DNA of 35,955 nt from Methanobacteriota archaeon (GCA_014240385.1 JAAZXA010000070.1:1-35955); one strand, 5' to 3'. Shown: positions 7,213 to 21,489, counted from the stretch's first letter. Numbers and translations: made by a program. Notes: generated from the letters alone by a model not told the origin.

Positions 7213-9873
7213 TTAGATATTTGCCTTACGCATCATGGTTATTATTACTCCACCTAAAACAATTGCAAATACCCAGAAGGCGAATATCTCGATAGTGGTC
7301 CACGGCTCATCTGCAGTTACTCCAGTTATTATGGCATATGATTCCCATTCTCCAGCGGTATTTTCCCACTCCACTGTTAATTTCAAAACCTCATCGTCAT
7401 CTGCATTCCAAATCATAGTTATCTCATCCTCTCCTGGACCATATGGTGTAGCAGTTGGCATCATCCTCTCTAAACAATCTGAGCCAATGCATAATCTCAT
7501 CAAACCACTCCTTGAGCCTTCGTTGACTACTTTGATAATTATTTCATAAGCACCTGGGCGAACTCCATCATCTGGGTGTTGAATATCCAATACTTTCAGA
7601 GCAACGATATCTTGGGGGTGAATCTGAACATCTAAGTTGTATTTTGCAATATTTCCTGCTTCATCTATTGCCTCGACAAGGATTCGGTGGTTTCCAACAG
7701 ACATTTCGGGTAAACTGGTGTTGATGGCACTATCAAAACTAACTCCATTCCTTTCTGATATGACTTCATCATCCAATGAAATAGTGTAAATTACATTTGT
7801 AGCAGCAGAAATATCATCGAAAGATTCTGAAATATTCAGCCAAATATTCTCCCCTGTTATTGGTTGATTTGATGGCGTCATCAAGCCAGCACCTTCTATC
7901 CATAATCTAGGTTTAATGATAGGTCCTGTACCATCTAAGACTTCTACATTCCATGTTTTTTTGACAAGGTGTCCAACTTCATCCTTGACTTCAATAGTTA
8001 GTGAATGATGGGAAGTATTCCTTTGACCTTGTCTTTCTTCAATCGACATTCCCACTTGGTTAACTTCAGTACCTTGATGAAATACTATGCTAGCCAAAGC
8101 ACCTGCTTCGTTCCAACCTACACTCTTGTTACTGAACCAATGCACAGAAGCCGAACTGGTGTTGTCAATTGCCACAGTTTGAAGATAGATTCGTTCTCCA
8201 GCAACAACCGCTATTTCATCACACTGCATGATGTCAACAACTGCAATGCTGCTCCCATCGCAACTGACATTAGATGTTGAATTTTTAACCCAAGGTAGGT
8301 CTCCATCAAGGACAATATGTCCTTCTGCACTTGCTTGAATCTCGTAGAAATCACTGCAAGTGTGGCTGAAATTAACCTGTTGCCCAGATTGCCATCCGCT
8401 AATTTCAGAAGCATTTAGAAGGAAATTAGACTGACTAAATTGGTGAGGGATATTATCTCCTGCAGTAAATTCCCAACTGCAATCAAGGCTACCTAAGCCA
8501 TGATCGCTTGAACTCGAAGTGACATTGATTGGTAGGTCCCATGCTTGGTATCCCTCCAATTGAGTACTAACTTGCGGGGCTGTGTTTTCACCAATGCTAA
8601 TGATGAATCCCCCAGATAATCCACTCAAGTCTCTACTAATGGTGAAATTGTTTGGACTTCCAGAAACCCATGATTCATCTGAAGATGAGCGATACTCCCA
8701 AGTGGAAGGCAAGAGAACCTGAATTGGCGTGGATTGGCGTGCATCGTCATTGAGTATCAAGGTCAACAAGGCATGTGGAACGTGATTTCTTTGGGCTGCA
8801 AGGCTTCCATTCTCATACCAACCCCAACTACCATCATTTTCGATGAATCCTTCGACTCTAATTCCTTGAGGGGAGTTTAGGTCAATTCCATCTAGTGAAC
8901 AGCAAAGGCCGTCGAGGCTTTCGAACCAAGAACTACTGTTTAGTAAATCAGTGAATGCGGATTCTTCACCTTGCAAATAAAGATCGATTTGTGTTTCAAG
9001 TGGCAAGCCCCAACTTGGTAGTAAAGTCGAACCCATGCCTGTGCCAAACAAATGTTGAGCACTCCAATTTATTTCAAAATCAGAACCTGGCAATGGTGCT
9101 TCCATAAATTCCAATATTGCTTGACCTTTACTTGTAGATGGTGTTGTATTGTTGAGCCAATGTCCAAGACTTTCGCTAATGTTGCTTTGTTGGTTATTGA
9201 AAATTACAGACCATTCTTCTCCCAAATCAAGCAATGGTAAAGAAAAATTTAACCAACCTTCATTTGCTTGTGCATAGATGATATATCCACTGTTTTTATG
9301 GATAATCCGAACTAAATCAGTTACCGAAGTTTCGAATGAATGATTGAAGAAACCAACACCAGCAACTGATGAGTTCATCTCTGAAGTCAAGAGTTGACCA
9401 TAGTCATTGGAAATGAGGAGCCAGCCTGATTCATTGAGTAGAGTCCCTACAGAATCAGTATCTGAATCGATAGAGCCATTTTGATTCCACCAAGACAGAG
9501 AGTTAGCACCACTAATATTGACTAATGTTCCATTCCATGAATGTTCCAAAAGAACCTCAGTAGAGTTGCCGATATCTGGCTGAATTGCTGAAGTGTGGTT
9601 GAAACTGCCATCCTCACAATCTACTTCCAGTCTAACTGTCCCAGCATCAATGTCGGTGAATTGATTTTCTTCTGCAATAATCCAGTTTGAGGTGGGGCTC
9701 CAAGCCGATGATATTTTTGCCATACATTGGCCCTGTGCAGGGTTAATTGATAACGTCCATGTTCCAATTGCAGATTCAGAATCTGCAATTACATTACTTG
9801 GTAGAAGAACTGCCTGTGGAGCGATGCTTGTTGAAAACAATAAAGTGAGTATAATTATGATGGCATTACGCAT
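7213..9873 (-). CDS. Secreted, C-terminally membrane-anchored surface protein with Ig-like segments and many N-glycosylation sequons
   Basis: Start re-assigned to ATG at 9873 (MRNAIIIILTLLFSTSIAPQAVLL, signal-peptide-like). C-terminal TM (TIEIFAFWVFAIVLGGVIITMMRKANI). More than 20 N-x-S/T sites counted by eye. Confidence 0.8.
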   Translation of the reverse strand: MRNAIIIILTLLFSTSIAPQAVLLPSNVIADSESAIGTWTLSINPAQGQCMAKISSAWSPTSNWIIAEENQFTDIDAGTVRLEVDCEDGSFNHTSAIQPDIGNSTEVLLEHSWNGTLVNISGANSLSWWNQNGSIDSDTDSVGTLLNESGWLLISNDYGQLLTSEMNSSVAGVGFFNHSFETSVTDLVRIIHKNSGYIIYAQANEGWLNFSLPLLDLGEEWSVIFNNQQSNISESLGHWLNNTTPSTSKGQAILEFMEAPLPGSDFEINWSAQHLFGTGMGSTLLPSWGLPLETQIDLYLQGEESAFTDLLNSSSWFESLDGLCCSLDGIDLNSPQGIRVEGFIENDGSWGWYENGSLAAQRNHVPHALLTLILNDDARQSTPIQVLLPSTWEYRSSSDESWVSGSPNNFTISRDLSGLSGGFIISIGENTAPQVSTQLEGYQAWDLPINVTSSSSDHGLGSLDCSWEFTAGDNIPHQFSQSNFLLNASEISGWQSGQQVNFSHTCSDFYEIQASAEGHIVLDGDLPWVKNSTSNVSCDGSSIAVVDIMQCDEIAVVAGERIYLQTVAIDNTSSASVHWFSNKSVGWNEAGALASIVFHQGTEVNQVGMSIEERQGQRNTSHHSLTIEVKDEVGHLVKKTWNVEVLDGTGPIIKPRLWIEGAGLMTPSNQPITGENIWLNISESFDDISAATNVIYTISLDDEVISERNGVSFDSAINTSLPEMSVGNHRILVEAIDEAGNIAKYNLDVQIHPQDIVALKVLDIQHPDDGVRPGAYEIIIKVVNEGSRSGLMRLCIGSDCLERMMPTATPYGPGEDEITMIWNADDDEVLKLTVEWENTAGEWESYAIITGVTADEPWTTIEIFAFWVFAIVLGGVIITMMRKANI

Positions 9874-13496: not shown

Positions 13497-13671
13497 CTTA
13501 TTTTGACTATCCAAAAAAGCACTGTTTCTTAGTCTTCAATTGTGTTCAAGGGTGGATTTAATCAATCCCTCAGTTGGAAAGTTGAGAATGGTCTGCAAAT
13601 AGTCCTTACAGGACTAGGACAACAACAACCTCAAGAAGCCGATTGCAACCTGTCCCCCTTCAAGGGTGCAC

Positions 13672-14016
13672 ATGCTACGTCGGTTACTGGCCTCATTGAA
13701 TCGAATCCCTGGGGTTCGAGGAACATCGGTTGTGGATGAACATGGGCGATTGCGAGCAAGCCTAGTTGAAGACCAAGATGAGAACGTTTTCTCCTCTGAA
13801 ATTCCTCTGGCTCTAAGACAAGCCAATGAATTAAGCAAAGATGCCGGAATTGGTTCAATCGACCAAGTCTGGGCTACTGGCTCAAATGGAAGAGTTGGTA
13901 TCGCGAGCATGGCTGCTGGTGCATCCTTAGTTATCGTCTGCAATAGAGAAAGTGCACTTGGCAGGCTACGACATGAAGTTGGACGTAGTCGTCCTACAAT
14001 GAAAGAATTGATTTGA
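13672..14016 (+). CDS. Roadblock/LC7-like domain protein
   Basis: MLRRLLASLNRIPGVRGTSVVDEHGRLRASLVED...VGIASMAAGASLVIVCNRESALGRLRHEVGRS resembles the single-domain roadblock/LC7 fold. GTG 13666 is an alternative start. Confidence 0.65.
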   Translation: MLRRLLASLNRIPGVRGTSVVDEHGRLRASLVEDQDENVFSSEIPLALRQANELSKDAGIGSIDQVWATGSNGRVGIASMAAGASLVIVCNRESALGRLRHEVGRSRPTMKELI

Positions 14017-14022
14017 GGTGAA

Positions 14023-17000
14023 GTGATGTTTGAATTACCAAGTGGAATGAGCCCGAAAGGGGATTTCGAGGCTGCTCTTGATATGGCTGATATGCCATTT
14101 GAGTACGGAGTAGTAACTTGGTCAGCAGCAAGGTCAAAGAAGGCCATTGGGCATCAACTGATTAGTGGCTCAAAGGTTGTTGGATGGCTTTGTTCTTCAG
14201 AAAATAAGGATGAAGTTGTTGTCGGTTCAGCTGCAGCCTCTTTGCTTCGTAGAATAGCCCATGACCGCCGCTTGAGGTCTACAGCAGCAGAATGGACAAG
14301 AGAGCAATTTGCGGCAGTGGCGAAAAGAATTCCTCAGGCCATTGTTGACCGGCGTGATCTTGCTGCCTTCGGAATAACCGGTAGAGAATGTATTGACCTC
14401 AGTTCAAGAGACCTTTCGATGATAGTCCAGGAGTTAGCGCTCAGGCCCGAAGTGATTGGTGCCTTTGCATTTGAAGATGGAGTCATTATCGCAGATGCTG
14501 GTGAATTACCTGCTGAAGCCGAACAAATGGCAATCAAATCAACTGAGGGCCTTTCGGGAATGGCTTCCATGCAAGATTCATTATCCCTAAGCGGATTTGA
14601 TAGGCTGGTATTATGGCTTGATAGTGGAGTCCTATTATTGGCCAACGCAGGTTCTGCAACACTCGGTCTTTGGACTACTCCAAATGCAGACCATCAGCAC
14701 CTTATCGCTAATGCAGCAGCAATGGTTGATTTAGCACCTGAACCGATGATTGCTCCAGAGATTATTCCCGAGGGGTTCTTGATGCGAGCCGGAAAGGCTG
14801 GTGTTGATTCAATGATTACCATGTTGAGAACTGGTCTTGAAGAAAAGGTGGATGGATATCTACTGATTGAAGGGCCTGGTGAAAAACATGAGATAATCAT
14901 TAGACAAGGAATGCCGGTCGCTATTCGGAGTAGAAGTGAGGATTTGCAAACGGCAGTCTTTGCTGCAACTACTCCTGGATTTGGAGCCAGCCTTCGCAGA
15001 ATCGAACGCAATGAGATTGCTGGAGCAATTGCGGGTGGCCTAGACGACTTCAGTCTCAATGGATTCATCACTGCCCTTGCCACATGTCGAACAAGAAGCG
15101 ACAGTCGGCAACAAACTTTGCGCGGAAGAATGGCTCGAATGTGGGGCTTTGAGGCGGGTTTGGAGGCATTAGACATAAGCCGAGTTGGATTCAAATTAAT
15201 CGAGCACAAAGCGGCTGGTGAGGCTAGTCTAAAACCAGTAGAAAGTGAAAATACAGTCCTATTGCCTGTATCAAGGCACCAAGGAGAACGGGCAGCCAAG
15301 TTAGAAACTGAACTCGATGAGAGTCGAATCCAAACTGCTCGCTTGAAAGATAAGATGGATGAGTCAGTCCATTCAGCGGAAGTGCTTCGAGATGAATTGA
15401 GACTTGCCAATGACCGTTGTGACGAATTGCATGAAAGAATAGAAGGGCTCAACATTTCACTAGATGAATCAGCAGCAGCCAAGCGAGGTGCAGATGAAAA
15501 CTCAGAGGAGGTTTCAGACCGCGCTTCCCGCTTGTCAAAGAGAGTTGCAGCATTAGAACATCAATTGGAACAAAGAGCGTCTGAATTGGCATTAGCGCTT
15601 GGTGATTCGGGTAGTCGTTCACAATTGCGTAAAGAGGTGGCTGAACTAAGCACCAATGAAGCTCACTTATCTGCTGAGGTCGAAGCAAATTCAGAGAAGT
15701 TAACCCGCTTACGGGATGAAATCGAGAATGATGAAAGGAGAAGTAGAATGCTGACAGATCAGGTTTCCGCACTTTCAGACCGCCACCGAGTTTCAGCCAC
15801 AGATACTGACGAAATGGAACGAAGGCTAAGCCGAGCCCGTGAAGAATTAACCACTGTCGAAGCAGAAACTCATGAAGTCCGTAAAATGTTGAAGGAAACT
15901 CTGAACGAAAGGGATGAAGTTAGAGCGAAATCTAACCACCTTCAAGTAGAATTACGCGATTTGATGGGTGAGCGACAAAGCCTACTTCGTGAATTAGGTG
16001 ATTTAGCAGCAAACCGTGGTGAAAAGGAAGGTGAATTATCTCACCTCATCAAGCGAGCAAGAGAATTATCAGGAGCCCATGAAGACGCATTAGCAGATAT
16101 CGCAGAAGCAGAAAGGATTCGAGCCCGTCTGTCTGAAGAACCTCTGGCAAGGGCCTTGATGGGGGAGGAATCCGGAATCGAAGCCTTGGGCCCAGTTTTG
16201 GAAAGGCTCGAGCATGCCCGTACAATGGGATATAGCGTAACTCTGCTCGATAGAGCCGTAGAGCGCGGCCTACAATTGATTCAATTCACCGTTGAAGAAG
16301 TATCTCGTACACCTCGCTACCTATTGTCGAATGAAGTGATGGATATTCTTGAACGTCAATCTCCCCATACCGCTGGCACTGTCAGAGGATTGACAAATTG
16401 GTCGGTGAAGCAAAGATTGGAAAACAGATTGGCTGAAACCGTACAGCACGTTGTCCTTGACCTTGAGCGAATGCTCGAAGACTATGAGCAATCAATCACA
16501 ATGCTGCGCCGCCTACGCCAAGTTCTCGATCAGCTACAAGGCCTTGGAGCGCCAACTGAAGAGGTGGAAACCCTCTTGTTAAGTTGCAACCGTCCAGAAT
16601 CATTACCTCTCATTGCTAGAAAGGCCCGTCGCCTAATTCAAATGGCTCTTGATGAAATTTATCTTGAGGCAGATCAGAGAGATGCGGGTGCTGCAGTTAG
16701 ATTGGAAACTACAACCCAAGTTCTTGAAGAATTAGTCTCTCAAATCGAAGCAACCGGATTGACCGGTGAAGATCCAAATGGACCACTATGGGATTTCCAA
16801 AGAAGTGGAATGCTACCGTGGGAAGCGGGCGGTGAGGCACCACATGTTGAGGTTGCAGAAGATGCAATAGTCGAATTGACTCAACCCCTTGAAAGCACTG
16901 ATATTATCGCTGAAGGGCAACATCAAGCAATTTCCGAAGATGAAGAAACTGAAGAATTGTGGACCGATTTACCACCTCCAGAAGATAATCCAGGAACTGA

Positions 17001-17217
17001 AACTGAATTAGTTCCAAAGGCCATGGTAGAAGCTAGTGAAATCGTCGAAAGTACTGGAGAGGCTGATCAAAGAGCCTGGATTGAACAAGAATTAGCACGC
17101 CTTGATGCGCAATGGAAACATCGCGGTGAAGTGGCTAGCGAACCAACTACAAATCCGCTTGTCGATGAGGGTATGCTTTCCGACTTGGAGAGCGATTTAG
17201 CGGACCTTGAACTCTGA
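14023..17217 (+). CDS. Large multidomain coiled-coil protein: N-terminal roadblock-like region, PATAN/DUF4388-like segment, long central coiled coil, helical C-terminal region, acidic tail
   Basis: 1064 aa ORF with SD GAGGTGA. Roadblock-like IVQELALRPEVIGAFAFEDGVIIADAGELP...DRLVLWLDSGVLLLANAG. Long heptad-rich stretch from roughly residue 415 to 680. No Walker A motif seen. Confidence 0.75.
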   Translation: MMFELPSGMSPKGDFEAALDMADMPFEYGVVTWSAARSKKAIGHQLISGSKVVGWLCSSENKDEVVVGSAAASLLRRIAHDRRLRSTAAEWTREQFAAVAKRIPQAIVDRRDLAAFGITGRECIDLSSRDLSMIVQELALRPEVIGAFAFEDGVIIADAGELPAEAEQMAIKSTEGLSGMASMQDSLSLSGFDRLVLWLDSGVLLLANAGSATLGLWTTPNADHQHLIANAAAMVDLAPEPMIAPEIIPEGFLMRAGKAGVDSMITMLRTGLEEKVDGYLLIEGPGEKHEIIIRQGMPVAIRSRSEDLQTAVFAATTPGFGASLRRIERNEIAGAIAGGLDDFSLNGFITALATCRTRSDSRQQTLRGRMARMWGFEAGLEALDISRVGFKLIEHKAAGEASLKPVESENTVLLPVSRHQGERAAKLETELDESRIQTARLKDKMDESVHSAEVLRDELRLANDRCDELHERIEGLNISLDESAAAKRGADENSEEVSDRASRLSKRVAALEHQLEQRASELALALGDSGSRSQLRKEVAELSTNEAHLSAEVEANSEKLTRLRDEIENDERRSRMLTDQVSALSDRHRVSATDTDEMERRLSRAREELTTVEAETHEVRKMLKETLNERDEVRAKSNHLQVELRDLMGERQSLLRELGDLAANRGEKEGELSHLIKRARELSGAHEDALADIAEAERIRARLSEEPLARALMGEESGIEALGPVLERLEHARTMGYSVTLLDRAVERGLQLIQFTVEEVSRTPRYLLSNEVMDILERQSPHTAGTVRGLTNWSVKQRLENRLAETVQHVVLDLERMLEDYEQSITMLRRLRQVLDQLQGLGAPTEEVETLLLSCNRPESLPLIARKARRLIQMALDEIYLEADQRDAGAAVRLETTTQVLEELVSQIEATGLTGEDPNGPLWDFQRSGMLPWEAGGEAPHVEVAEDAIVELTQPLESTDIIAEGQHQAISEDEETEELWTDLPPPEDNPGTETELVPKAMVEASEIVESTGEADQRAWIEQELARLDAQWKHRGEVASEPTTNPLVDEGMLSDLESDLADLEL

Positions 17218-17226
17218 GGTGTTTGC

Positions 17227-17436
17227 TTGGATGAAGAAGCAATAGCCTTTCCAATGTGGAAAGAACGGCTTGGAATGCTATTCATAATAGTCTCGGCAAT
17301 TATGATGAGTCGTTGGTTATTCCAACAAAGCCTATGGCCAGAGCCATTAATCTGGATATTGAATATTTGTGTTCTACCCTTAGTTGTATTAGTCTTAGCA
17401 GAAGGATTTGGTAGGCTTATACAAAAACGTACCTAG
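17227..17436 (+). CDS. Small membrane protein (about two TM segments)
   Basis: 69 aa ORF with TTG start, preceded by GAGGTG, directly downstream of 14023..17217; two hydrophobic stretches. Confidence 0.5.
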   Translation: MDEEAIAFPMWKERLGMLFIIVSAIMMSRWLFQQSLWPEPLIWILNICVLPLVVLVLAEGFGRLIQKRT

Positions 17437-18614
17437 ATTTTTTGACGACTGGTCAAGTGTTCAACAAATCCAGACAAGCGTTGCCATGGGATAACATAGC
17501 GTAATGCAGCCAATAAACCAAGGAATAGTAGAGCAGAAATAACCAGCCCATATGTCAACTTCAATTCAATCGATTCTGACACCTGCATCGCCCATTGACT
17601 TCCAGTTAAATCTGCAACTTGCTCAAGCAAGATGGTGTGGAATCCAAGGGCAACCATAGTAGATAGGCCAGTTATCCCCAAGAAGAAAATTGTGTGGTAA
17701 AGATGGTGATTGAGCAGGTTATCCATTTGGGCAACGTATTCAGGGTCCTTCTTACAAGATTCAGGCAAGCGGAATGCATACTCCATGTAGCCAATTACTC
17801 CAAAGGCGCTCTCTTGGAAGATAAGCATTAAAATTGCGATTAAGATTAAACTTCCCTGCTCTGGTGTAATCATTCCCCAAACGGTGGGCTCACCAACTTG
17901 AGCATCGAAGCGTGGAATGTAAGCGCCTGCACTTCCTAACACATTGTAAATCAGTGGGAATGTCAAAATTGCATGAATAGCCAAGAAAAATAATGTGAAT
18001 CCCATTGCCCATGCTATACCTCTTCGAGATAAACCCCAAATTCCCTTACACCCCATAATGACGGGAAGTAAATAGAATCCAAGTACTAAGACAGTTGCTA
18101 ACATTGAAATTGGCCAAATCAGGAAATTAAATTCAGATTGAGTAGGCACTCTCCATTCCCAACTAAACAACATGCCGAATAGCCAAGAGGCTAGTAAACG
18201 ACCAACCAAGAGAGCTATCAAGGCTACAATCACCCAGAATTTGATTCTCTGCTGTCTTTGAGGTGGTTGGAATGAGAGGAAGGCCATTCCCCCTCCAAGA
18301 ATCAATCCTAATGCAATGGGCATGTAAACCCTTGACATACCATCTGAGTCAAGCCCAGTCATCCAATCGGCTAATGGGATTTCATAATTACCTTCGGTCC
18401 CAGTTTTGATGTACGAATCGAGTTGATTGAGTACTAGAGTGTGATCAAGATGGCCGATGATATAGGTATCAATAACCTCAAGATACATCCAAACGAGGGC
18501 TACGGTTGCAATCACCTGCAATGCAAGTATTTGCCAAGTCTTACGCAAGTTGCGTAGGTGAAGGGTTCTGACTCCTTCCACTTGTCTTGTAACCTCATCT
18601 GCCATATTATTCAC
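17433..18614 (-). CDS. Polytopic membrane protein of unknown function
   Basis: 393 aa ORF with several hydrophobic segments; GGGGTGA SD upstream; co-directional with the DUF58 and DUF4350 genes. Stop overlaps the + strand stop of 17227..17436 in a shared CTAG. Confidence 0.75.
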   Translation of the reverse strand: MNNMADEVTRQVEGVRTLHLRNLRKTWQILALQVIATVALVWMYLEVIDTYIIGHLDHTLVLNQLDSYIKTGTEGNYEIPLADWMTGLDSDGMSRVYMPIALGLILGGGMAFLSFQPPQRQQRIKFWVIVALIALLVGRLLASWLFGMLFSWEWRVPTQSEFNFLIWPISMLATVLVLGFYLLPVIMGCKGIWGLSRRGIAWAMGFTLFFLAIHAILTFPLIYNVLGSAGAYIPRFDAQVGEPTVWGMITPEQGSLILIAILMLIFQESAFGVIGYMEYAFRLPESCKKDPEYVAQMDNLLNHHLYHTIFFLGITGLSTMVALGFHTILLEQVADLTGSQWAMQVSESIELKLTYGLVISALLFLGLLAALRYVIPWQRLSGFVEHLTSRQKI

Positions 18615-18617
18615 CCC

Positions 18618-19877
18618 TCAGAATCCTCTAGCTTGTAGTAAAGCCTGTGATAACTCCATATCTGGCATCCAATCGATTACCGTTGCACCAAAACCGGCCA
18701 ACGAGGTCATCCGGTTTTGCCTCTCAATCTTTAGAACTTCATAACTCATCCTTGGGATACGACTGACTAAGCGCTCGAAATCTACACTTGATGGTGAAAG
18801 AATGACTACTTCGTGGCTCCGACCCACCAAATCACGTAGAGCATGAGGTACTGTACCGTCTCCCTCACAACTAGAGAGGATGAAAACCGGGGAGCCGCGA
18901 CTGAAACGTGGAGCGATTGAATTTGTGACCGCCTGCAAAGGCATGTTGCCCTTTGGTGCAACACCTGCAAGGCTACTTAGAATCTTGAAGTATTGTTTAT
19001 CCCCAGTATCCGGTTGTAAGTAAGATAATTTATCATCATAAATAGCCAATGCGACTGAATCACGACGCTTAAGGAAGAAACTAGCCAATGAAGCGGCGGC
19101 AATGGTATTGTTCTCAAGTGGGTTCTTCAACACCGTACCAATTCGGCTAACATCTCTACTATCCAATATGATGTAGACATCTGTTACCGCATCTCTGCAT
19201 GTGTCATTAACAATTAGAGTGCCATCGCCTGTCTTGGCACTTGCCTTCCAATTAATCATCTTGAATGGATCACCAGGGACATATTCTCTTAGAGCGTAGA
19301 ACTCAGTACCAGGCCCAGCATTTCGAAGAGTAGTAGCGCCGGTGTACATTTTCGGTGTATTAGATTTCACGAAGGCCTCTTCAATTTCCGCAACTTGTGG
19401 GAAAATAATCATGTCTGAATGATGAGGGATATACATCTCCTCCATAAATAAATTGAAGGTGTTACGGAATCGAAGGCTTACAGGTCCCAAAGAGAAATGG
19501 CCACGTAGTGGGCAACGTAGGGAATAGCGAATACGAGCAGTCTCTCCCGGTCCAAGGTTCAAGCGCATTGCGTTCAAACCTGAGCGCAACTTCATTTCAT
19601 GAGGAACATTATCGTATACCTCCAACATTTGAGTTCTACGCATTGAACGGTTAGTCACAACCAATTCCACATAGAGGTCATCACCTTTGTACAAGTTATC
19701 GGCCGACAAAGAACGCGAAACTTCTACATCTCCATGCCCAGATAGCCATGAGTTAACGGTAATAAAGGCGATTAGTGAGAGACCGAAAATCATCAATTGA
19801 TGATTTGCAATCATCATCCCAACCAAAAGAAGAGCAATCCCTCCAACGAAGGTGAATGATGCCTTACGGGTCCACAT
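18618..19877 (-). CDS. DUF58 domain-containing protein
   Basis: Two N-terminal TM segments, then FYALREYVPGDPFKMINWKASAKTGDGTLIVNDTCRDAVTDVYIILDSR, the characteristic DUF58 motif region. Confidence 0.9.
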   Translation of the reverse strand: MWTRKASFTFVGGIALLLVGMMIANHQLMIFGLSLIAFITVNSWLSGHGDVEVSRSLSADNLYKGDDLYVELVVTNRSMRRTQMLEVYDNVPHEMKLRSGLNAMRLNLGPGETARIRYSLRCPLRGHFSLGPVSLRFRNTFNLFMEEMYIPHHSDMIIFPQVAEIEEAFVKSNTPKMYTGATTLRNAGPGTEFYALREYVPGDPFKMINWKASAKTGDGTLIVNDTCRDAVTDVYIILDSRDVSRIGTVLKNPLENNTIAAASLASFFLKRRDSVALAIYDDKLSYLQPDTGDKQYFKILSSLAGVAPKGNMPLQAVTNSIAPRFSRGSPVFILSSCEGDGTVPHALRDLVGRSHEVVILSPSSVDFERLVSRIPRMSYEVLKIERQNRMTSLAGFGATVIDWMPDMELSQALLQARGF

Positions 19878-19878
19878 T

Positions 19879-21489
19879 TCAGCCCCTCCCCCATGCTTTG
19901 ATTCGTTTTACGATAGTCACCAATTGTTCCAATGAATATTCACGGTTTTCAAAGACGAATTTTATCAATACAGGGTCAGAAATCATCTTTTGTAACTCCG
20001 TCGCCGGCATTGCATCGAATTCTTCTCTAGTCAAAGCATTGTTATTCCTAACCCTTGACAAGAATACTTGCTTTATCTTGTTTGATTTGGCGTAGAAACT
20101 ATAACGTCTAGCATCACCAAAACCATAGTAAATAATACTGAAAACGTGCCTCCAAGGCTCTGGGTCCTTCTTCTTGATAACTACAGCCTCAAAGGCAACG
20201 AACAAGCCCATGAAGAGCAAGAGCATAGCCATTGACTCACCTGTGAAATAAACTAATATCCAGTAAATGAGGTTATAGGATTCTGCAAAAAATGCATTCT
20301 GTGGGTGGCGGCTCTCATCGAAAATCACTAATGCGCTATCACTTGCTTCCAATGTACCATTTTCATCTGTCAATAATGCAAGAGCAATGACATCGAGTGC
20401 CCATTTGCGGTTATCGTTAGCAGGCATTGCAACTTTTGGAGTCTTGCCTTCGGTGTAGTCTCCCCGATTATAACCATCATAATCATACATCGCATTGGAA
20501 AGTAATGAGCCATCTGCAATGAAAATAATCCGTCCTTCCATACCTTCTCCTGCATGTTCACATCTACTTTCGCAGACCTCAACACCAACGATGAAATTTC
20601 CTTCAATACTGGCCGCCCTATCTGGTGTTTCTTCATTGAGTTCCTGCCCAACATTAACTTCTCCATCACGATTTACATCGATTGAAGCATCCTTTGAAGA
20701 TACTGCAATAGTATGTGAAACTCCAAGTTTTGAACGGCTTGAACCATTTTCTATGATAGTTGGACCATTCAACAATAATTGATAGGATGAATTGTAGCTA
20801 ATTGCGCCAGCTTGCCAATGGTGAGTGCAAAGCCCAGCTTCATTTGGTGCAGTAGAGCGGCCATCCACCAAGGCGCAGGGGTGGGCTCCATCCCATACAG
20901 GGTGGGCCTTATGTGAAGCATTGTCAACTGTGGTATTCTTCATCCCACAGGCTTCTTCCTGTAGACAAGTCCAAACAAAAGAAGAATTTAGAGTAGGTTC
21001 GTATAAGGAATCATACATCTGGTGGCCATCGAATTTCCAACCAAATGCCTCAGCTAAGCCGCTAGCAAAACCGAAGTCCTCAAGGACAATCACAGTGCCA
21101 TTTGCCTTGTAGAAATCAACGATGGCTTCGATTTCAGAAGTGCTGTATCCATCAGCTTCCTCAATTTCAATGAATCCTGATTCACCGAAATGTGGCATAC
21201 TGAAAGTATCCCTCTCTACCCCACTAATAACGAAAGTAGCATTGCCCGGATCATCGATATCGTTGAGAAGGAGTGGACTGCTAACTACTGAACGGGTTGT
21301 AATACCCATATCGTTGATATCTTCACGGAAGGCCGATAGATCATTCCAATCATCGTCATAGGCGGACAACTGCGAACGGTTTCCAGTTTGAATATATGAG
21401 GCAAGAACAACTCCAATCAAGAGCAATAATGTGCCATAGAATCCTGCTAGGAGCAGGCCTCTTCGCATCTTTCGTCCCATCTTCGCCAT
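19879..21489 (-). CDS. DUF4350-like membrane protein
   Basis: N-terminal TM, extracytoplasmic domain (GFIEIEEADGYSTSEIEAIVDFYKANGTVIVLEDFGFASGLAEAFGW), second TM, short helical C-terminus; stop 1 nt from the DUF58 start. Confidence 0.75.
   Translation of the reverse strand: MAKMGRKMRRGLLLAGFYGTLLLLIGVVLASYIQTGNRSQLSAYDDDWNDLSAFREDINDMGITTRSVVSSPLLLNDIDDPGNATFVISGVERDTFSMPHFGESGFIEIEEADGYSTSEIEAIVDFYKANGTVIVLEDFGFASGLAEAFGWKFDGHQMYDSLYEPTLNSSFVWTCLQEEACGMKNTTVDNASHKAHPVWDGAHPCALVDGRSTAPNEAGLCTHHWQAGAISYNSSYQLLLNGPTIIENGSSRSKLGVSHTIAVSSKDASIDVNRDGEVNVGQELNEETPDRAASIEGNFIVGVEVCESRCEHAGEGMEGRIIFIADGSLLSNAMYDYDGYNRGDYTEGKTPKVAMPANDNRKWALDVIALALLTDENGTLEASDSALVIFDESRHPQNAFFAESYNLIYWILVYFTGESMAMLLLFMGLFVAFEAVVIKKKDPEPWRHVFSIIYYGFGDARRYSFYAKSNKIKQVFLSRVRNNNALTREEFDAMPATELQKMISDPVLIKFVFENREYSLEQLVTIVKRIKAWGRG

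Follow-up and report, generated by a model that had tools for sequence, protein, structure and literature searches.

The window, that is, the whole stretch of 35,955 nucleotides that was analysed, corresponds to contig C29 in the genome of a member of Ca. Poseidoniaceae (Marine Group II), an assembly of 1.51 Mb that is 83% complete. Three co-directional ORFs are found where the initial annotation had placed them, at 13666-14016, 14023-17217 and 17227-17436, and encode a small roadblock/LC7 protein (ROB), a long roadblock/coiled-coil protein (CC) and a mini membrane protein (MINI). The coordinates of the genes and of the CC domains are collected in Table 1. Judging by the aligned N-termini, ROB probably starts at ATG 13672 (MLRRLL, with MLxRLL in homologues), the longer form from GTG 13666 being less likely, and CC probably starts at ATG 14026 (MFELP, with MFxLP in homologues), GTG 14023 lying one codon upstream. 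MINI is assigned a TTG start because its homologues align upstream of the first internal ATG. The gene follows CC after a spacing of 9 nt, and at its 3' end it converges on the next gene with an overlap of 4 nt. Measured against locus L042, dN/dS is 0.04 for ROB, 0.09 for CC and 0.29 for MINI, and all three are therefore real, constrained genes.

Table 1. Genes of the locus and domains of CC, in window positions
Feature	Position	Strand	Basis
ROB (gene 1), single-domain roadblock/LC7 protein, 114 aa	13672..14016	+	PF03259 match, family alignment, dN/dS
CC (gene 2), roadblock/coiled-coil protein, 1063 aa	14026..17217	+	full-length orthologues, dN/dS
CC residues 28-108, alpha/beta domain 1	14104..14346	+	AlphaFold, pLDDT about 85-92; no family match
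CC residues 128-237, roadblock domain	14404..14733	+	AlphaFold and Foldseek, profile matches
CC residues 252-336, alpha/beta domain 3	14776..15030	+	AlphaFold, pLDDT about 95 for most
CC residues 420-705, coiled coil	15280..16137	+	3.5-residue period
CC residues 706-935, all-helical domain	16138..16827	+	AlphaFold, dN/dS
CC residues 936-1064, acidic variable tail	16828..17214	+	charge, alignment
MINI (gene 3), 69 aa, two predicted TM segments	17227..17436	+	hydropathy, presence at CC loci

Roadblock domains and the coiled coil

ROB matches the Pfam family Robl_LC7 (PF03259) with an E-value of 4.4e-8 and 33.2 bits, above the curated cut-off of 23, in agreement with the first reading of gene 1 as a roadblock/LC7 protein. 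The family profile retrieves a roadblock protein of Thorarchaeota (7f8m, E=3.3e-8) and two more Asgard roadblocks (E of about 3e-4), and it reaches MglC at E=0.055. The family alignment reveals a basic motif in the C-terminal helix, which reads GRLRHEVGR in the window and LARWRHALDR in other members, and the R/R/H pattern of this last helix would fit contact with a membrane.

CC is far less accessible to sequence searches. Single-sequence scans with Pfam, NCBIfam and PHROGs returned coiled-coil artefacts or nothing, and no enzyme family was found in either ROB or CC with Pfam and NCBIfam. An AlphaFold model of residues 1-405 was built from an alignment of 44 orthologues (mean pLDDT 84.8), and in this model residues 128-237, approximately, adopt a roadblock fold (alpha-beta-beta-alpha-beta-beta-beta-alpha). 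All of the best 50 Foldseek matches listed for this domain are roadblock folds; the top match is Roadblock3 of MK-D1 (9jue; E=8.8e-7, prob 1.00, TMt 0.76), and MglB, p14/MP1 (1veu, E=5.5e-6) and CvnB5 (3leq) are among the others listed. By sequence the domain stays below the Pfam threshold and is invisible to single-sequence HMMER; a profile search matches CvnB5 3leq over residues 131-232 (E=0.018), and PF03259 matches inside the CC orthologue of genome G063 (E=9.8e-4). The roadblock fold suspected in both proteins is thus present, in gene 2 by structure prediction of the N-terminal region combined with these profile matches, and in gene 1 by Pfam. ROB and the CC roadblock domain resemble each other weakly (profile-profile E=0.0024 over 94 columns).

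Profile-profile comparison of the three N-terminal domains of CC detected no mutual repeats. The segment 252-336, first read as PATAN/DUF4388-like, is modelled as a separate alpha/beta domain, the 50 Foldseek matches listed for the N-terminal model being taken up by roadblocks. That first reading has no sequence support, as PF14332 (DUF4388/PATAN) did not match the locus in any of 60 genomes, even with the limit relaxed to E<=1, and was equally absent from a scan of 44 CC family members.

The long coiled coil expected in gene 2 was recovered as a stretch of about 285 residues with a periodicity of 3.5 residues (z=8.5 relative to shuffles) and only 10 Pro/Gly in 286 residues; if one continuous helix, it would be about 42 nm long. 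Residues 636-945 are modelled by AlphaFold as all-helical (pLDDT 79.7) with a mean column identity of 75% in the alignment, and residues 706-935 are the most constrained part of CC, with a dN/dS of 0.02 against L042. A structure search with the helical model found no PDB relative, and a profile search with the domain returned nothing below E=0.48. The tail carries a net charge of -31, and conservation rises again in a stretch close to its end.

The coil scores against SMC (E=4e-11) and weakly against EzrA, which would be in keeping with the pair being a chromosome-organising or cell-division scaffold built on an SMC-like or EzrA-like coiled coil. However, the match covers the coil only, as is expected of any coiled coil, the ATPase head and hinge were not found, and a large living clade shows no trace of the pair, which is therefore not part of an essential core. 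We consider such a role improbable. A relation of CC to SMC proteins was rejected as well: the model of the N-terminal region does not represent an ABC head, in line with the earlier observation that SMC/Rad50-type Walker motifs are missing from gene 2.

Distribution, synteny and joint absence of ROB and CC

The closest public relative of CC is 94% identical and belongs to a Candidatus Poseidoniales MAG, and the next, at 70%, is labelled Poseidoniaceae. Among 390 Thermoplasmatota genomes, CC is present in 84 Poseidoniales, and the two weak matches outside the order are short and marginal. The orthologues are full-length, most of them 36-46% identical, and occur in Poseidoniales only. In a sample of 97 genomes, for which the family names were inferred (f1 as Poseidoniaceae, f2 as Thalassarchaeaceae), CC is found in four f2 genera and in every f1 genome except G082, which is 83% complete. 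Two contigs labelled Flavobacteriales and Phycisphaerae (L070 and L119) bear a Poseidoniaceae cassette and are probably misbinned MAG contigs. In the single-contig genome G002 (C1:1852805-1855974), CC is broken near its 3' end by an in-frame TGA and the tail appears as a separate match, reflecting either pseudogenisation of the tail or a sequence error.

The three genes are conserved neighbours, as had been supposed. Of the 80 loci fetched, 76 extend far enough upstream to be scored for ROB, which immediately precedes CC in every one of them, and MINI immediately follows CC in 76 of 78. The conserved wider order is pyrB-pyrI, ncsA(-), ROB-CC-MINI(+), TM393-DUF58-DUF4350(-) and Cdc48. The TM393-DUF58-DUF4350 block, at 17433-21489 (-) in the window, is kept in both families, including genomes that lack the cassette, and TM393 itself matched no Pfam family.

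Ten cassette-minus f2 loci were inspected. Here ncsA and TM393 are separated by 100-412 nt, compared with about 4.1 kb where the cassette is present, and no trace of ROB or CC was found between them, whereas a divergent MINI is kept in nine of the ten (HMM E-values from 6e-10 to 2e-3). In these nine (L150-L157 and L159), MINI has a partly conserved N-terminal motif, approximately L-x-G-R ... P-W-x-x-R. A search of 34 genomes with the ROB profile gave the same picture for the pair, with ROB in 15 of the 16 CC-positive genomes and in no CC-negative genome (0 of 18); in the exception, G038, CC begins where the contig ends. As ROB and CC are jointly missing while MINI stays, the functional unit is the ROB/CC pair, and MINI is not just an anchor.

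A single membrane-tethered complex of all three gene products, with MINI as the obligate anchor, would account for the tight CC-MINI spacing and for the adjacency of the two genes at nearly all loci. The retention of ncsA-MINI-TM393 without genes 1 and 2 in nine of the ten cassette-minus genomes argues against it; MINI therefore does at least one job for which the pair is not needed, and the anchor function initially proposed for MINI, in its obligate form, is very doubtful.

A tree of four neighbouring genes places all cassette-minus genomes on one side of a fully supported branch, and the CC tree separates the two families, with the lineage of the window as a separate deep branch. If the root is assumed to lie between the families, vertical inheritance with a single joint loss of ROB/CC would follow; if it is assumed to lie on the cassette-minus branch, a single gain would be equally simple. 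ROB and CC behave as one unit under either root, and MINI does not depend on them.

Small GTPases and the archaellum

The usual view of roadblock proteins is that they serve small GTPases as accessories and mark the path to eukaryotic membrane signalling. The small-GTPase models PF08477 (Roc) and PF00025 (Arf) matched none and one, respectively, of 60 Poseidoniales genomes, and both matched all positive controls (Thermus, Deinobacterium and M. jannaschii). The earlier remark that the window encodes no GTPase is borne out, in that no MglA-like GTPase accompanies the genes; a divergent GTPase could escape the Pfam models. The lone Arf-like GTPase is private to the source genome, G000 (L122 1447-2187; L129 10294-11037, contig C65), and probably belongs to a mobile island, with a serine recombinase some 6 kb away and glycosyltransferases nearby. 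It was rejected as a general partner of the pair, being absent from the 59 other genomes and having this recombinase and glycosyltransferase neighbourhood.

The main rival to a scaffold role is that the pair regulates an NTPase that escaped detection, as a GAP/GEF or effector platform for a divergent or non-Ras NTPase encoded elsewhere, in the manner of MglB/MglA or CvnB/CvnD. Among the roadblock proteins that have been characterised, most act on small GTPases; of 749 prokaryotic MglB homologues, 421 are coupled to an MglA (PMC4316618); and the CC roadblock resembles CvnB5. Set against this, the Arf and Roc models are empty in 59 of the 60 genomes, the only NTPase among the conserved neighbours is Cdc48, which is also found beside the cassette-minus locus, and orphan MglB is common (328 of 749; PMC4316618). 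On balance, we find regulation of such an NTPase unlikely.

In another alternative, the pair would act in the polarity or assembly of the archaellum or type IV pilus-like filaments, as a counterpart of FrzS, SgmX and MglA of Myxococcus. Nearly all Poseidoniaceae have both archaellins and the pair, as do the Thalassarchaeaceae genera g15 and g19, and FrzS joins a pseudo-receiver domain to a pole-localising coiled coil (PMC11580455). The published distribution that was considered as a potential match to that of the pair (PMC6336850) did not match in the genus-level archaellin comparison: the pair occurs without archaellin in g17 (three genomes) and g22, and archaellin occurs without the pair in g21 and g14. 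The two loci also lie about 200 kb apart in G002, a single-contig genome. Because each occurs without the other, the pair is not a part of the archaellum and an obligate relation was rejected; a polarity or assembly role has little probability in our estimation.

A proposed roadblock platform on a coiled-coil tether

The pair is probably a scaffold or tether. ROB and CC would be two subunits of one complex, in which ROB pairs with the CC roadblock domain to form a hetero- or homodimeric platform, as in Ragulator. A long parallel coiled coil would carry this platform at one end and, at the other, the constrained helical domain, which would bind a conserved client. Placement of the platform at the membrane may come from the basic last helix of ROB or from MINI, although the step involving an anchor is weakened because MINI survives without the pair. 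The complex would then do its scaffolding or tethering without the help of a dedicated Ras-like GTPase. Precedents exist for several of these elements, as roadblock heteromers serve as platforms in Ragulator and in MglB with RomY, a basic patch confers membrane contact on MglB, and scaffold or membrane roles are also described for an Asgard roadblock (PMC10933270, PMC9481161). The chances are about even, in our view, that the pair is a two-subunit roadblock platform carried by a long coiled-coil tether, whose far end holds a conserved helical domain that binds a client. The fuller proposal, that of a Poseidoniales-specific, two-subunit roadblock scaffold independent of Ras-like GTPases, whose platform caps a tether of ~40 nm and which represents a new intracellular or membrane organiser, is more tentative. 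Of the membrane-tethered polarity, cytoskeletal or division scaffold first suggested, the scaffold is still the best reading that we can infer, whereas polarity linked to the archaellum is not backed by co-occurrence.

The pair shares features with several known systems. MglB and MglC of Myxococcus and Thermus have the same fold and, like ROB, are small single-domain proteins; unlike them, ROB occurs in genomes without an MglA-like GTPase and has as its partner a roadblock/coiled-coil protein of 1063 aa. An MglA/MglB module, which has an MglA-type GTPase encoded alongside or elsewhere in the genome, was accordingly not found, the lone Arf gene being private to the source genome. The closest solved structures, for ROB and, among the matches listed, for the CC roadblock, are Asgard roadblocks (7f8m of Thorarchaeota; 7yh1 and 9jue of MK-D1). 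Asgard archaea have many small GTPases, unlike the setting of the Poseidoniales pair, and we know of no comparable coiled-coil partner gene for their roadblocks. With Ragulator (LAMTOR1-5) the pair shares the concept of several roadblock domains in a membrane-placed platform, but it has neither a LAMTOR1-like wrapper nor a Rag GTPase, and Ragulator lacks a long coiled coil. The CC roadblock matches CvnB5 (3leq) of the actinobacterial conservons, yet no CvnA kinase, CvnC or CvnD GTPase is located near the pair. FrzS of Myxococcus likewise combines a signalling-type N-terminal domain with a large coiled coil; this domain is a pseudo-receiver rather than a roadblock, and the link to the archaellum is not supported for CC.

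The folds are known, but the architecture, the strict pairing, the restriction to one order and the missing recognisable GTPase are not described in the literature searched. No paper on the pair was found there, and the one text that combines 'Marine Group II' with 'roadblock' is, judging by its title and abstract, a review of Asgard archaea. Poseidoniales are abundant ocean archaea, with Poseidoniaceae as a dominant marine archaeal family. ROB/CC is a defined gene pair with a candidate role in structure or signalling, and its presence sets this family apart from most of the Thalassarchaeaceae, which have smaller genomes. If the proposal is true, a GTPase-less pair in euryarchaeal plankton would split the scaffold role of roadblock proteins from GTPase control.

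The source genome encodes a second roadblock gene (L128, contig C66) at 9134-9478 (PF03259, E=4e-7), between genes for a GNAT acetyltransferase and a KaiC-family ATPase on the opposite strand. The surrounding region (L128 5705-12576) contains two DUF7121 coiled-coil proteins, a 666-aa ORF and a DUF1246/DUF1297 (purP-like) gene. Clusters related to this roadblock/coiled-coil neighbourhood, which is separate from the ROB-CC locus, occur in L036 and L038.
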